63,428 nucleotides of DNA from an uncultured Chloroflexus sp. (lineage in GTDB: Bacteria > Chloroflexota > Chloroflexia > Chloroflexales > Chloroflexaceae), in contig NZ_CAKZNK010000015.1 in the NCBI RefSeq assembly GCF_937129525.1, positions 1 through 63,428 of the forward strand, given 5' to 3'. Below the pieces are notes generated by a model. It saw nothing but the letters and a program-made list of their open reading frames with translations. It did not search any database and had not been told where the DNA came from. Numbering within the stretch: position 1 is the stretch's first letter; every line of letters begins with the position of its first letter. This document shows, one piece after another, positions 7,661 to 22,335 of this stretch. Both the position numbers and the translations under genes were made by a program.

Positions 7661-7688
7661 TTATCCACAATTCCACCAGTTATCCACA
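7661..7688 (+). promoter_or_regulatory. Pair of consensus DnaA boxes
   Basis: Two exact TTATCCACA nonamers start 19 bp apart (7661 and 7680), same orientation, in AT-rich intergenic DNA upstream of crtI. They match the larger cluster at 14.3-14.5 kb. Confidence 0.65.
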
Positions 7689-13616: not shown

Positions 13617-14234
13617 TCAACTACCCAGCGGCCAACCGGCCAATATCGGTTGACCGGCGACAAACCGCTCGATCTGCGCCAGCGCGACCACAGGAATACC
13701 CAACTCAAGCAACGGTTCGCGCCCCTTTTGAAACAATTTCTCAACCACAAATGCAGCAACAACCACTGTGGCGCGGGCTTCCCGAATCATTTCGGCCAGT
13801 GCCAGAGCGGTGCGTCCATTTGCAAGAAAATCGTCAACGATGGCTACCCGCGCGCCGGCAGGGAGAAAGCGAGCAGTAATGACCAGTTGGGTTTCGCGCC
13901 CTCTAGTTGGAGAGGGAACCCGGCGGGTCAACGCCGGCGTCGGCACGTCGGGATCATACTTTTTAGCGTAGACCAGCGGGAGCTGGGCGGACAGCGCCGC
14001 GGCCAATGCCGGTGGAATCCCGCTCGCTTCGGCGGTTACGATCAGATCGGGACAAAACCGATCCAGGCGAGTTGCCAGCTCCGCCCCGATCGCTTGCATC
14101 AAGCTCGGGTCAATGCGGTGGTTAAGGAAATGGTCGATTTTCAGAATCTGATCATCAACTACGACTGCTTCCTGAGCAATCCGGCTAACAAGTGGCGGGA
14201 AGGGAGCACACAACGTATCTTGCTGTGGGGCCAT
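13617..14234 (-). CDS. xpt: Xanthine phosphoribosyltransferase
   Basis: This 205-residue purine salvage enzyme would convert xanthine and PRPP to XMP. It follows the Xpt pattern: [20 protein letters not shown] near residue 30, the PRPP-binding loop [14 protein letters not shown] and the C-terminal [11 protein letters not shown]...[12 protein letters not shown]. The start is ATG with AGAGGTG somewhat far upstream. A purine riboswitch is common in front of xpt in Firmicutes, but I do not see one here. The spacer upstream instead carries the DnaA-box cluster. Confidence 0.88.
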
Positions 14235-14592
14235 AGAACAATTTACACCTCTAGCTGTAATTCGGTACCATAAGTTTCATGATAATAAACAAGTGATTTG
14301 GAAATCGCCGTGGTGATAGGGCTGTGGAAGATGTGGAAGAACCGGTAGATACAGCATATTGAGGCTAGATTCGGCATGTGGAAATCATGGGAACATGTTT
14401 CCACATGGGAAGAGTGCATGACACCATAAGCGGCAGCTTCCGCAAAGCGTCCACGAACTATACACGCGATATTCCGCAGGTTATCCACAAAGGTGACGAG
14501 TTTTCCACATAATATTGCCAGTTATCCACAAGGGGTAAAAACAGGAACAGGGCGGTTCACCCGCCCTGTTGCCGAGGCACTCTGAATACGCC
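14235..14592. other. Candidate replication origin (DnaA-box cluster)
   Basis: This non-coding spacer holds seven sites with a TGTGGA core. One group is TGTGGAAGA twice in tandem (14323-14340) and TGTGGAAAT (14377-14385). The group in opposite orientation is GTTTCCACA (14397-14405), TTATCCACA (14481-14489), TTTTCCACA (14501-14509) and TTATCCACA (14522-14530). AT-rich stretches flank them at about 14240-14300 and 14500-14520. A perfect 10-bp inverted repeat, CATGTGGAAA / TTTCCACATG, spans 14375-14407. parABS lies 2.5 kb away. dnaA is not in the window, so the assignment as oriC is inference. Confidence 0.55.
14536..14570 (-). terminator. Intrinsic terminator of the bifunctional nuclease gene
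   Basis: On the minus strand a 10-bp stem (AACAGGGCGG / CCGCCCTGTT, loop 5 nt) is followed by CCTGTTTTTA, about 20 bp after the stop codon at 14593. Confidence 0.85.
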
Positions 14593-15168
14593 TTACGATT
14601 TTTCCCCTGGACGATCGCGGTCGTCAAGATCGAGCGTATTAATGAAGTTACGGAAAATCGACAGTGAATCTTCGTTGAGTTCAGGCTCATTTTCCGAAGA
14701 GGTCTCAGCGGCTGGTTCTGCGCTGCGGCTCGGCGCAGGAGGCGTGACATCTTCGGACTGTTCTTCTTCATCAAACAGCACCCCAGCCTGCTCGAGCACG
14801 TGGTCAGCCACAAAGATCGGCGCCTGAACTCGTTCGGCAAGCGCGATGGCATCACTAGGACGGGCATCAAGCTCAATCGCGCGCCCGGCCTGGTCAATCA
14901 GAATCCGCGCGAAGAAGGTGTTATCGCGGATGTCATTGATATAAATGTGACGGACCAAACCGTCCAGTTCGCCGATGGCAGCCTTGAGCAGGTCGTGCGT
15001 CATTGGTCGTTGCGGCTCGTGACCCTGAATTGCCATCGCAATGGCATCGGCCTCAAACTGACCGATCCAGATGGGCAAGTAACGATTTCCTTCAGTTTCA
15101 CGGAGGACGACGACCCGGCTCTGCGTCAACAGGCTGACACGGATACTATCGACGACGACTCGTATCAT
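14593..15168 (-). CDS. Bifunctional nuclease family protein (DUF151)
   Basis: The 191-residue protein has the DUF151/BFN domain in its first 130 residues: VVLRETEGNRYLPIWIG, EADAIAMA, then LDARPSDAIALA. Members have been described with DNase and RNase activity, though the physiological role in bacteria is unclear. The C-terminal 60 residues are an acidic, low-complexity tail rich in Glu, Ser and Pro. I chose the ATG at 15168 (AAAGG upstream, and family members start with MI.V.VDSI); an ATG at 15183 is possible. Its promoter overlaps that of the divergent peptidase gene. Confidence 0.87.
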   Translation of the reverse strand: MIRVVVDSIRVSLLTQSRVVVLRETEGNRYLPIWIGQFEADAIAMAIQGHEPQRPMTHDLLKAAIGELDGLVRHIYINDIRDNTFFARILIDQAGRAIELDARPSDAIALAERVQAPIFVADHVLEQAGVLFDEEEQSEDVTPPAPSRSAEPAAETSSENEPELNEDSLSIFRNFINTLDLDDRDRPGEKS

Positions 15169-15246
15169 CGGCCGGCCTTTCATGAAACGCCCATCTCCGG
15201 CGCTTAAGTGGGATCCGGATCGGGCAGCGGAAGAATCAGCAGTTAT

Positions 15247-17070: not shown

Positions 17071-17880
17071 GTGTGGGTGTTTCACGTGAAACAGCAAGCG
17101 ACAGGCTCGCAACCGCGCGTACTGGCAATTGCAAATCAGAAAGGCGGCGTTGGCAAAACCACGACTGCCGTCAATCTTGCCGGTGAACTGGCCCGTCGTG
17201 GCCGGCGGGTGCTCTTGATTGATATCGATCCACAAGGCAATGCAACAACGAGCCTGGGCATTGCCAAAGCAGCATTGACTGTCACGACCTACGATCTCCT
17301 CCTCGGTGGCGCGCCGCCGGAAACGATACCGCTCGCCAGTGGGCGTGAGCGACTCGATATTATTCCCGCCGATCAAGAACTGGCCGGCGCTGCCGTGGAA
17401 CTGGTCACATTGGAACGGCGCGAATGGCGCCTGCGTGATGGCATAGCGCCACTGCTACACCGCTACGACTGGATCGTGATCGACTGCCCTCCCTCGCTGG
17501 GATTGTTAACCCTCAACGCACTCTGCGCCGCTCAGTCGGTGCTGATTCCGTTGCAATGTGAATATCTGGCCCTCGAAGGCCTGGCGCAACTCAAAACAAC
17601 TCTAGAGCGGGTGCGCGAGCATCTGAACCCACTCCTGCGCATCCTGGGAGTCGTGATGACCATGTACGATGGCCGCACCAATCTGGCGCAGCAGGTTGTG
17701 GACGAAGTGCAACGTTACTTTCCACAGCTTATCTGTCGCACCCTCATCCCACGCAGCGTGCGTCTGAGTGAAGCGCCAAGCCATGGACGTATGGCTTATG
17801 AGTATGATCCCCATGGGCGCGGCGCGCAAGCCTATGCGCTGCTCACCGACGAATTGATTGGGCGAGAGGAGCGAGTATGA
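17071..17880 (+). CDS. parA: Chromosome partitioning ATPase ParA (Soj)
   Basis: ParA is the Walker-type ATPase that moves ParB-bound origins on the nucleoid. The protein (269 residues from the GTG at 17071) has the deviant Walker A motif KGGVGKTTT at about residues 24-32, DIDPQGNAT, and DCPPSLGLL (Walker B region). Starts at GTG 17077 or 17086 are also possible; the family core begins near residue 16. The first codons contain a perfect parS. It overlaps parB by 4 bp (ATGA), so the two are translationally coupled. Confidence 0.95.
   Translation: MWVFHVKQQATGSQPRVLAIANQKGGVGKTTTAVNLAGELARRGRRVLLIDIDPQGNATTSLGIAKAALTVTTYDLLLGGAPPETIPLASGRERLDIIPADQELAGAAVELVTLERREWRLRDGIAPLLHRYDWIVIDCPPSLGLLTLNALCAAQSVLIPLQCEYLALEGLAQLKTTLERVREHLNPLLRILGVVMTMYDGRTNLAQQVVDEVQRYFPQLICRTLIPRSVRLSEAPSHGRMAYEYDPHGRGAQAYALLTDELIGREERV
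17078..17093. promoter_or_regulatory. Perfect parS centromere site
   Basis: TGTTTCACGTGAAACA matches the 16-bp parS consensus exactly and is a perfect palindrome. It lies within the first codons of parA (Val-Phe-His-Val-Lys), just after the parAB promoter. Confidence 0.95.
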
Positions 17881-18977
17881 GCCGGAAACGTGGTTTAGGC
17901 AGCGGCCTGGATGCGCTTATTCCATCAACCACCACCGATCAAACCATGGTGCGCGAATTGCCAGTAACCGCCATCCGGGCCAATCGCGCTCAACCTCGTA
18001 CCTCCTTCGATGAAACGGCACTCGCCGAATTAGCGGCGTCTGTTCAAGCCCACGGTGTCTTGCAGCCCCTGATCGTGAGCGAAGATCCGGCAGGCGGCTA
18101 CGAACTGATCGCCGGCGAACGGCGCTGGCGCGCCGCCCGCATGGCCGGTTTGACGACAGTGCCGGCTATCGTCAAAAATGCTACCCCGCAGCAATTCCTG
18201 GAACTGGCTCTGGTCGAAAATGTCCAGCGTGCCGATCTCAACCCGCTAGAAGAAGCGCAAGCTTATGAGACACTGCGGCGAGAGTTTGGTCTGAGTGATG
18301 AAGAGATTGCCCGTCGGGTTGGCAAGAGTCGGGTGGCGATTGTCAACAGCCGTCGCCTGCTCCGCCTTACTCCAACCGCGCGACAGGCCCTCCTTGACGG
18401 TGTGATCAGCGCCGGGCACGGTCGCGCTCTGCTGCGCCTCGAGGATCCGGCAGACCAACAGGCTGCGCTGGAATTGATTAAGGCGCGCGAACTCTCGGTG
18501 CGCGATGTAGAACGGCTCGCCGAACTGGTTACTCAACCTGGATTGGTGGCTGCCACGCGCAATGCCCTGTGCGCTGGTCAGATCGAACCGGCACAGGCGC
18601 TGGCATTGCAACAACTGGCCGACCCGCAGCTTCAGGCGACAGCCTGCGAAGCGGTCATGACCCATCGTCTAAACCGCGCTGAAACCGAGCGATTCTGCGC
18701 CGCCCTGGCCGCGGGAACCGAGATCGGTGCAGCGCTGGCCGAGATACGTAGCCGGAGTAGTCCCATACCGCCCACGTTATCAACGCGAGAGCCTCCCGAT
18801 CGCATACGTTCACCAATGGGTGCTTCACCTGAAGACCGCATGGCTCAGCAAATGTTTGAAGAGTTGTTGCAAACACCGGTGCAGATTGCCCGGAGTGGAA
18901 AAACCATCAGAGTAACGATTACGCTGTATGGTGATGAACAGTTGCAAGGGTTGTACGATCGTTTAGCCGGAAGTTAG
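17877..18977 (+). CDS. parB: Chromosome partitioning protein ParB (Spo0J)
   Basis: ParB is the CTPase clamp that loads at parS and spreads on DNA. The 366-residue protein has the N-terminal Spo0J/ParB domain with the CTP-binding box GERRWRAAR and ENVQRADLNPLEEA, then the helix-turn-helix (EIARRVGKSRVAIVNSRRLL) that reads parS, a linker, and a C-terminal dimerisation segment. It begins inside the parA stop codon. The family function agrees with two parS-like sites in the window (17078 and 22320). Downstream genes follow closely and may share the transcript. Confidence 0.96.
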   Translation: MSRKRGLGSGLDALIPSTTTDQTMVRELPVTAIRANRAQPRTSFDETALAELAASVQAHGVLQPLIVSEDPAGGYELIAGERRWRAARMAGLTTVPAIVKNATPQQFLELALVENVQRADLNPLEEAQAYETLRREFGLSDEEIARRVGKSRVAIVNSRRLLRLTPTARQALLDGVISAGHGRALLRLEDPADQQAALELIKARELSVRDVERLAELVTQPGLVAATRNALCAGQIEPAQALALQQLADPQLQATACEAVMTHRLNRAETERFCAALAAGTEIGAALAEIRSRSSPIPPTLSTREPPDRIRSPMGASPEDRMAQQMFEELLQTPVQIARSGKTIRVTITLYGDEQLQGLYDRLAGS

Positions 18978-22319: not shown

Positions 22320-22335
22320 TGTTTCACGGGAAACA
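22320..22335. promoter_or_regulatory. Near-consensus parS site (one mismatch)
   Basis: TGTTTCACGGGAAACA differs from the parS palindrome by one base in the centre. It sits 15 bp upstream of a strong promoter and 5.2 kb from the perfect parS in parA. Confidence 0.75.

Follow-up and report, generated by a model that had tools for sequence, protein, structure and literature searches.

The stretch of DNA under study, 63,428 nucleotides from an uncultured Chloroflexus sp. and hereafter called the window, contains a spacer of 358 bp (14235-14592) flanked by two genes on the minus strand. On one side stands a gene for a bifunctional nuclease (BFN; 14593-15183; Pfam BFN_dom, 2.8e-42), which is the constant neighbour of the DnaA-box array described below; on the other side stands an xpt-like phosphoribosyltransferase gene (13617-14234; Pribosyltran, 1.3e-10), which is its variable neighbour. 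A first-pass annotation had named these two neighbours, and not dnaA, and both are recovered by their Pfam domains. The dnaA gene of the same assembly is located on a different contig (C135) with upstream boxes of its own. Hence, adjacency to dnaA, a usual, non-defining feature of oriC, is not displayed by the spacer.

Beyond BFN and an M23/LysM gene, parA (17071-17880, plus strand; AAA_31, 2.1e-58) and parB (17877-18977, plus strand; HTH_ParB, 3.1e-35; ParB_N, 5.1e-34) are found, and a perfect parS site, TGTTTCACGTGAAACA, lies at the start of parA (17078-17093), 2.5 kb from the array. The earlier claim of a parA-parB pair with parS at this distance is thus upheld. The arrangement is that of an origin-proximal ParABS system, with parS by parAB near the site, and it is not confined to the window: a single perfect parS was detected in each of four genomes searched, 2.3-2.5 kb from the array in all four. 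parB was found inside the fetched flanks (up to 10 kb, many loci being shorter) in 20 of 48 loci. A second parS-like site with one mismatch is present in the window (22320-22335), 5.2 kb from the perfect one; the genomes G006, G007 and G009 have no one-mismatch site.

The box cluster of the spacer

Seven TGTGGA cores are found in the spacer within 208 bp, as the first-pass annotation had noticed, three in one orientation (14323, 14332 and 14377, plus strand) and four in the other (14400, 14484, 14504 and 14525, minus strand). The window as a whole is not enriched in this hexamer (27 occurrences, 26.4 expected), and the local concentration is far beyond chance: in 300 dinucleotide shuffles of the window, the best cluster contained one core in 36 cases, two in 239, three in 24 and four in one, and never more than four. 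These shuffles, together with the conserved spacing of three of the boxes (absent from a reversed control), led us to reject a chance cluster. Of the seven sites, only three are consensus-like (TTATCCACA at 14481, TTTTCCACA at 14501 and TTATCCACA at 14522), and the remaining four differ from TTATCCACA at two positions. In the whole assembly, the pattern TTWTNCACA occurs at 129 sites, compared with 87 for the backwards pattern, and no second trio within 300 bp was found among the matches listed.

Along the minus strand, the BFN gene is followed by the hairpin, the three-box array, the weak head-to-head boxes, the tandem box pair, the unstable DNA and finally the phosphoribosyltransferase gene. 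The hairpin (14546-14570, minus strand) is terminator-like, with perfect 10-bp arms that show matching changes in six of seven genus sequences (judged by eye, from the letters only). The array (14481-14530, minus strand) has the form TGTGGATAA-12-TGTGGAAAA-11-TGTGGATAA, its boxes beginning at 14481, 14501 and 14522 on the plus strand. The head-to-head pair (14375-14407), reported earlier as a perfect inverted repeat, indeed has two perfect arms of 10 bp, separated by 13 bp, and its box cores are invariant in an alignment of seven genus sequences. The 9-bp tandem (14323-14340, minus strand) is an exact repeat, TCTTCCACA-TCTTCCACA, that adjoins the unstable region. AT-rich flanks had also been described. 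This is true on the xpt-like side (14235-14322), which has 39% GC and where the 60-bp segment of lowest stability in the window starts at 14233; the opposite flank (14531-14592), with 60% GC, does not fit the description.

Close pairs of boxes are also detected outside the spacer. Two perfect TTATCCACA boxes 19 bp apart are found at 7661-7688 of the window, near its second least stable 60 bp (7571) and upstream of a gene of the FAD amine-oxidase type (CrtI-like); a pair with the same spacing lies near the orthologue in two other loci (L137 and L139). In another genome (G000:C67:92202-92231, locus L012), two perfect DnaA boxes with the 21-bp spacing of the first step of the array lie upstream of an open reading frame at about 92427.

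Conservation of the three-box array

The exact pattern TGTGGAWAA-12-TGTGGAWAA-11-TGTGGAWAA was searched for in 150 genomes of the class, with the reversed pattern as control. It was found once per genome in 49 of them, and the control was never found. A BFN match is present in 135 of the 150 class genomes and in 36 of 41 family genomes, and 44 of the 49 arrays lie on the same contig and strand as BFN, 34-569 bp past the end of the match; the exceptions are G042, G045, G047, G054 and G058. The 44 BFN-side arrays are distributed among the window's own family (f1, 29 of 38 genomes), f3 (10) and f4 (5). At the level of the order, the exact array is therefore present in 44 of 74 genomes and absent from 30, including all eight of family f2. 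One member of f2, G071, carries nine boxes (up to one mismatch) within 660 bp after BFN, compared with 23 in the whole 20-kb stretch.

When up to three mismatches were allowed, the array was detected in 67 of 78 BFN loci, a collection made of 30 loci of one set and 48 of the 80 of another in which some genomes are counted twice. The loci without it are L164, L169, L174-L181 and L183, and among these L174-L180 and L183 have three to nine boxes within 300 bp. A survey of box spacing covered 57 of the 80 loci; in the nine of these named Thermomicrobiaceae, Sphaerobacteraceae, Anaerolineae/-lineales or Caldilineaceae, two boxes within 300 bp were never found. Comparison of the spacer across relatives, a check proposed at the outset, thus shows an array that is conserved in the window's order.

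DnaA regulates some promoters, and the xpt-like gene has the spacer as its 5' region. One may accordingly wonder if the boxes belong to a transcription-control region of that gene or of BFN. An xpt-like homologue follows the array, however, in only 10 of the 78 rows, all ten being Chloroflexus genomes or the nearest MAGs (8 of the 78 rows end within 0.8 kb after BFN), and in other genomes different genes stand behind the conserved array: a response regulator in L157, a phosphofructokinase in L148 and an opposed iPGM gene in L171. Because the gene after the array varies between genera, a single promoter does not account for the conservation, and a role as xpt promoter was rejected. As to BFN, the array stands after its end, with BFN upstream. 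Altogether, a transcription-control region seems extremely unlikely.

In the wider phylum, the exact array was found in 43 of 400 genomes, again once in each and never in the control, and 13 of these genomes are outside the class (the BFN search was confined to class genomes). In G045, G170, G174 and G260, the array lies 670-1025 bp past the end of a DnaA-domain match on the same strand. This position, deduced from domain matches, probably places it just past dnaA, between dnaA and the next gene, which is a usual location of oriC. A different situation is found in 14 of the 18 arrays that belong either to the five class genomes mentioned above or to the 13 genomes outside the class, as these are not near dnaA. 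Array and dnaA are on separate contigs in G054 and G058 within the class and in G343, G245, G329, G301, G452, G488, G217, G476, G179 and G232 outside it, while in G042 and G047 they share a contig but are about 91 and 135 kb apart. The arrays of these 14 genomes may mark further displaced origins. At scattered places in its genome, G042 also has nine frames of 271 aa that match the DnaA domain with one and the same score, which we take to be, perhaps, an IS21-type helper ATPase.

Tandem boxes, triplets and unstable DNA

The tandem pair was examined in 42 distinct arrays, a set that leaves out the 11 of 78 loci without an array (up to two mismatches) and repeats of the same 50-mer. It was found in 36 of the 42 (at most six mismatches in 18) and fell below the cut-off in L159, L160, L165, L171, L172 and L173. 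Its distance is nearly fixed: the pair starts 188-191 bp from the array start in 27 of 36 cases, at 186 bp in two, at 198 bp in one and at 227-258 bp in six.

In the window, the pair is followed after 3 nt by a tract of five YNR triplets, CTATCACCACGGCGA (14305-14319, minus strand), that resembles the DnaA-trios of the basal unwinding system (BUS). The same short gap is found in the relatives. CT[AG] starts at a distance of 3 nt from the pair in 30 of 36 arrays and of 4 nt in four, so that in 34 of 36 the tandem boxes lie a few bases from triplets, as in BUS; in the other two, CT[AG] is absent from the next 10 nt. The commonest bases in the 35 rows aligned (of 42) spell five YNR triplets, the first of which is fixed by construction since CT[AG] was required for the column counts. 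A run test made without that requirement gave a mean YNR run of 3.81, compared with 1.47 (sd 0.14) in shuffles; the run of the window itself is 5. Strict trios with A in the middle show no excess (mean run 1.83, compared with 1.78 in shuffles, in 36 arrays), and three or more consecutive 3'-NAN-5' trios, the BUS rule, occur in only 5 of 36. As the strict rule is not obeyed, we do not file the spacer as a BUS member, though its layout is BUS-like.

Beyond the triplets lies a probable unwinding element (14233-14298), in which a nearest-neighbour scan places the 60-bp segments of lowest stability in the entire 63 kb and which reaches the start codon of the gene that follows. Easily melted DNA beside the boxes, as in an oriC, is thus seen in the stability scan. 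The scan was extended to 38 orthologues, arrays with too little flank being left out. In 33 of them the 50-bp segment of lowest stability, sought over 500 bp from the array start, falls at +205 to +310; in L027 it falls at +476, and in L039, L157, L167 and L168 it overlaps the array. The mean stability profile has two peaks, one at the array itself (8.01) and another at +225 (8.11), so the array is as unstable as the region proposed to melt.

Strand composition and the probable place of the origin

The five complete or nearly complete relatives examined here all start at dnaA. In G006, a single contig of 4,684,931 bp, dnaA lies at 0.6 kb; dnaA also opens the numbering in G007 and G009, and the array starts at 2,627,651, 1,967,010 and 1,889,153 in the three genomes, respectively. 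Array and dnaA are therefore about 2.06 Mb apart in G006, about 2 Mb in G007 and 1.9 Mb in G009. As the assembly to which the window belongs consists of 157 contigs, genome-wide skew was taken from the relatives, using stretches of 20 kb (40 from G006 and 20 each from G007, G009, G079 and G071). Regressions included gene strand as a covariate, assumed balanced replichores and used a 10-kb grid; 5-kb bins with fewer than 30 sites were dropped. Within the window, no change in the sign of the skew was seen at 14.4 kb.

The clearest signal was obtained in G006. Raw GC skew in the first 20 samples was negative in 11 of 11 at 0-2.4 Mb and positive in 9 of 9 from 2.64 Mb onwards. In the contiguous region 2.42-2.74 Mb, the cumulative four-fold skew (minimum sought above 2.5 Mb) reaches its lowest value at 2,627,223, only 428 bp from the orthologous array. 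The trough is, however, level between about 2.616 and 2.632 Mb, and the raw curve, read in steps of 4 kb, bottoms out at 2.620-2.624 Mb; the true precision is therefore one of kilobases. The balanced fit places the origin at 2,620,000, compared with 2,627,651 for the array; all of 200 bootstraps are closer to the array than to dnaA, and 150 of 200 lie within 250 kb of the array. With origin and terminus both free, the fit shifts to 2.20/0.28 Mb. The replication-strand coefficient at dnaA is -0.059, which is the sign of a terminus. Thus the minimum of G006 is found at the orthologous spacer and not elsewhere, for example next to dnaA. A second set of samples around coordinate 0 (4.64-0.14 Mb) gave -0.003, +0.015, +0.040 and +0.001, three of four positive. 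An island of reversed (positive) skew is also seen at G006:C1:2420001-2500000, some 130 kb from the proposed origin, and is perhaps a recent inversion or insertion.

In G079, where dnaA is at 0.8 kb, the local minimum (searched at 100-180 kb) lies at 137,047, and the array, at 135,640, is 1.4 kb distant. The local minimum is thus found at the array here as well, in a genome where no more than 136 kb separate this minimum from dnaA. The balanced fit gives 140,000, compared with 135,640 for the array; only 146 of 200 bootstraps are closer to the array than to dnaA, the coefficient at dnaA is positive (+0.034) and the free fit gives 0.92/2.84 Mb. In G009 the best fit, 1.48 Mb, is 0.41 Mb from the array. 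There the array is worse than the best position by 11.7 units and dnaA by 21.2, the dnaA coefficient has the terminus sign (-0.021) and 197 of 200 bootstraps are closer to the array. G007 gives little signal (dnaA coefficient -0.006; 138 of 200 bootstraps closer to the array). G071 has a strong gene-strand effect, a dnaA coefficient of +0.024 and an even split of bootstraps (103 of 200), and its fit is slightly better at dnaA (3.7 units from best) than at BFN (6.2 units). A minimum of strand composition is therefore found at the site in two of five genomes, clearly in G006 and locally in G079. A search with a pattern based on the E. coli dif sequence, allowing up to three mismatches, gave one chance-like match in four genomes and thus did not place the terminus.

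These results bear on the view that replication starts at dnaA and that the spacer of the window is something else. The genome paper of C. aurantiacus draws the origin at twelve o'clock on the map with dnaA, Caur_0001, at the start of the numbering (PMC3150298). A tandem box pair is indeed present upstream of dnaA in five of six genus loci (L050, the sixth, is truncated where its contig begins), and the slightly better fit of G071 at dnaA also agrees with this view. Against it stand the terminus sign of the skew at dnaA in G006 and G009 and the features of the dnaA region itself. By eye, the dnaA pair lies about 100 bp upstream of a promoter-like stretch, TTGCTTGAAA...TATGAT, a position that suits autoregulation of dnaA; no CTA tract is seen by eye after the pair, and no perfect parS was found at dnaA in the four genomes searched. 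We tentatively read this upstream pair, from its sequence context, as a site for autoregulation. The dnaA upstream region was rejected as origin on the basis of skew; we keep it as a rival and consider it very unlikely.

As tandem boxes are found at both places, spacer and dnaA boxes might also take part in a bipartite origin. Bipartite origins exist in B. subtilis and H. pylori, with parts that lie within a few kilobases. The two regions discussed here are, however, about 2.06 Mb apart in G006 and about 135 kb in G079, far beyond that range, and the dnaA boxes are arranged differently in G079. Such an origin is highly improbable, to an extreme degree.

Clusters of DnaA boxes outside oriC are also known as datA- or DARS-like sites, which titrate or reactivate DnaA and regulate an initiation that takes place elsewhere. 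Conservation alone cannot separate such a site from an origin. A site of this kind does not predict, however, a skew minimum, a sole perfect parS nearby or an unstable tract at a near-fixed distance, and we regard it as very unlikely.

Altogether, we propose that the 358-bp spacer is a DnaA-type oriC displaced from dnaA in the Chloroflexus of the window, and we give this reading a probability of roughly 87%. The candidate origin without dnaA beside it that was proposed in the first-pass annotation is thereby well supported by the skew minimum of G006, the local minimum of G079 and the conservation of the array in the order. What is observed is the box arrangement, its conservation, the position of the unstable DNA, the parS linkage and a skew minimum, seen in one complete relative and, at the local scale, in another; DnaA binding, melting and initiation at the spacer are inferred from them. 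A tentative course of events is that DnaA would bind the rigid three-box array, whose boxes are about two helical turns apart, and the weaker head-to-head boxes. The complex would then reach the tandem pair, about 18 helical turns away, and would be led onto a single strand of the triplet tract beside that pair. The AT-rich DNA bordering the downstream gene would melt, so that the helicase could be loaded there, and segregation of the newly made origins would fall to ParB bound at parS, at a distance of 2.5 kb. A broader and rather doubtful speculation is that the origin of Chloroflexota is a conserved cassette that moves apart from dnaA (after dnaA, after BFN or elsewhere) and that, in the window's order, has deviant YNR trios often devoid of the middle adenine.

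Should replication start at the BFN spacer, dnaA of G006 would be situated about 0.3 Mb from the position diametrically opposite, and estimates of growth rate from read coverage as well as studies of strand bias would have to be re-anchored. The group would provide a deep natural series in which the departure of an origin from dnaA could be followed, and the 42 distinct arrays would allow one to test directly which positions of a DnaA-trio tract are important.

Comparison with known origins

Literature searches on Chloroflexus, Chloroflexi and Roseiflexus origins gave no paper with a description of this site in its title or opening abstract. DoriC predictions for 17 Chloroflexi rest on skew and DnaA boxes (PMC5291525), the same kind of evidence as that used here, and the site may already be listed in DoriC. 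In a study of strand composition, 15.3 + 62.4 = 77.7% of leading-strand 10-kb segments of C. aggregans have G above C; origins are stated to have been checked against DoriC, the GenBank start being the origin apart from a few exceptions (PMC4070872). As the value of 77.7% is difficult to square with an origin located at dnaA, the authors of that study probably used the skew minimum, and the approximate displacement in C. aggregans is therefore probably known in an implicit manner.

A cluster of DnaA boxes with easily melted DNA away from dnaA is described for E. coli (PMC8287927) and for Synechococcus lividus PCC 6715 (PMC6323995), and the spacer is similar in this respect. Unlike those origins as described there, it has BFN and parAB as neighbours, a rigid array of three boxes with steps of 21 and 20 bp that is kept in 44 of the order's 74 genomes, and, in G006, a skew at dnaA with the sign of a terminus. 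With incC and the BUS of B. subtilis (PMC6669920 and PMC8287927), the spacer shares tandem boxes, a short gap, a triplet tract and DNA that melts. The sense of the triplets is also the same (CTA on the top strand is 3'-GAT-5'), and locus L182 has CTACTATTACTAC. The published rule demands three or more trios with A in the middle, and deviant forms of the trio are suspected to be possible (PMC8287927). Most tracts of the 36 arrays differ from BUS in this point, as they are made of YNR triplets with other middle bases, and at least three middle-A trios are found in 5 of 36. Our verdict is that the spacer is very probably a DnaA-dependent origin of a known kind, but with a notably rigid layout and in a position that is unusual and contrary to what is printed for C. 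aurantiacus.
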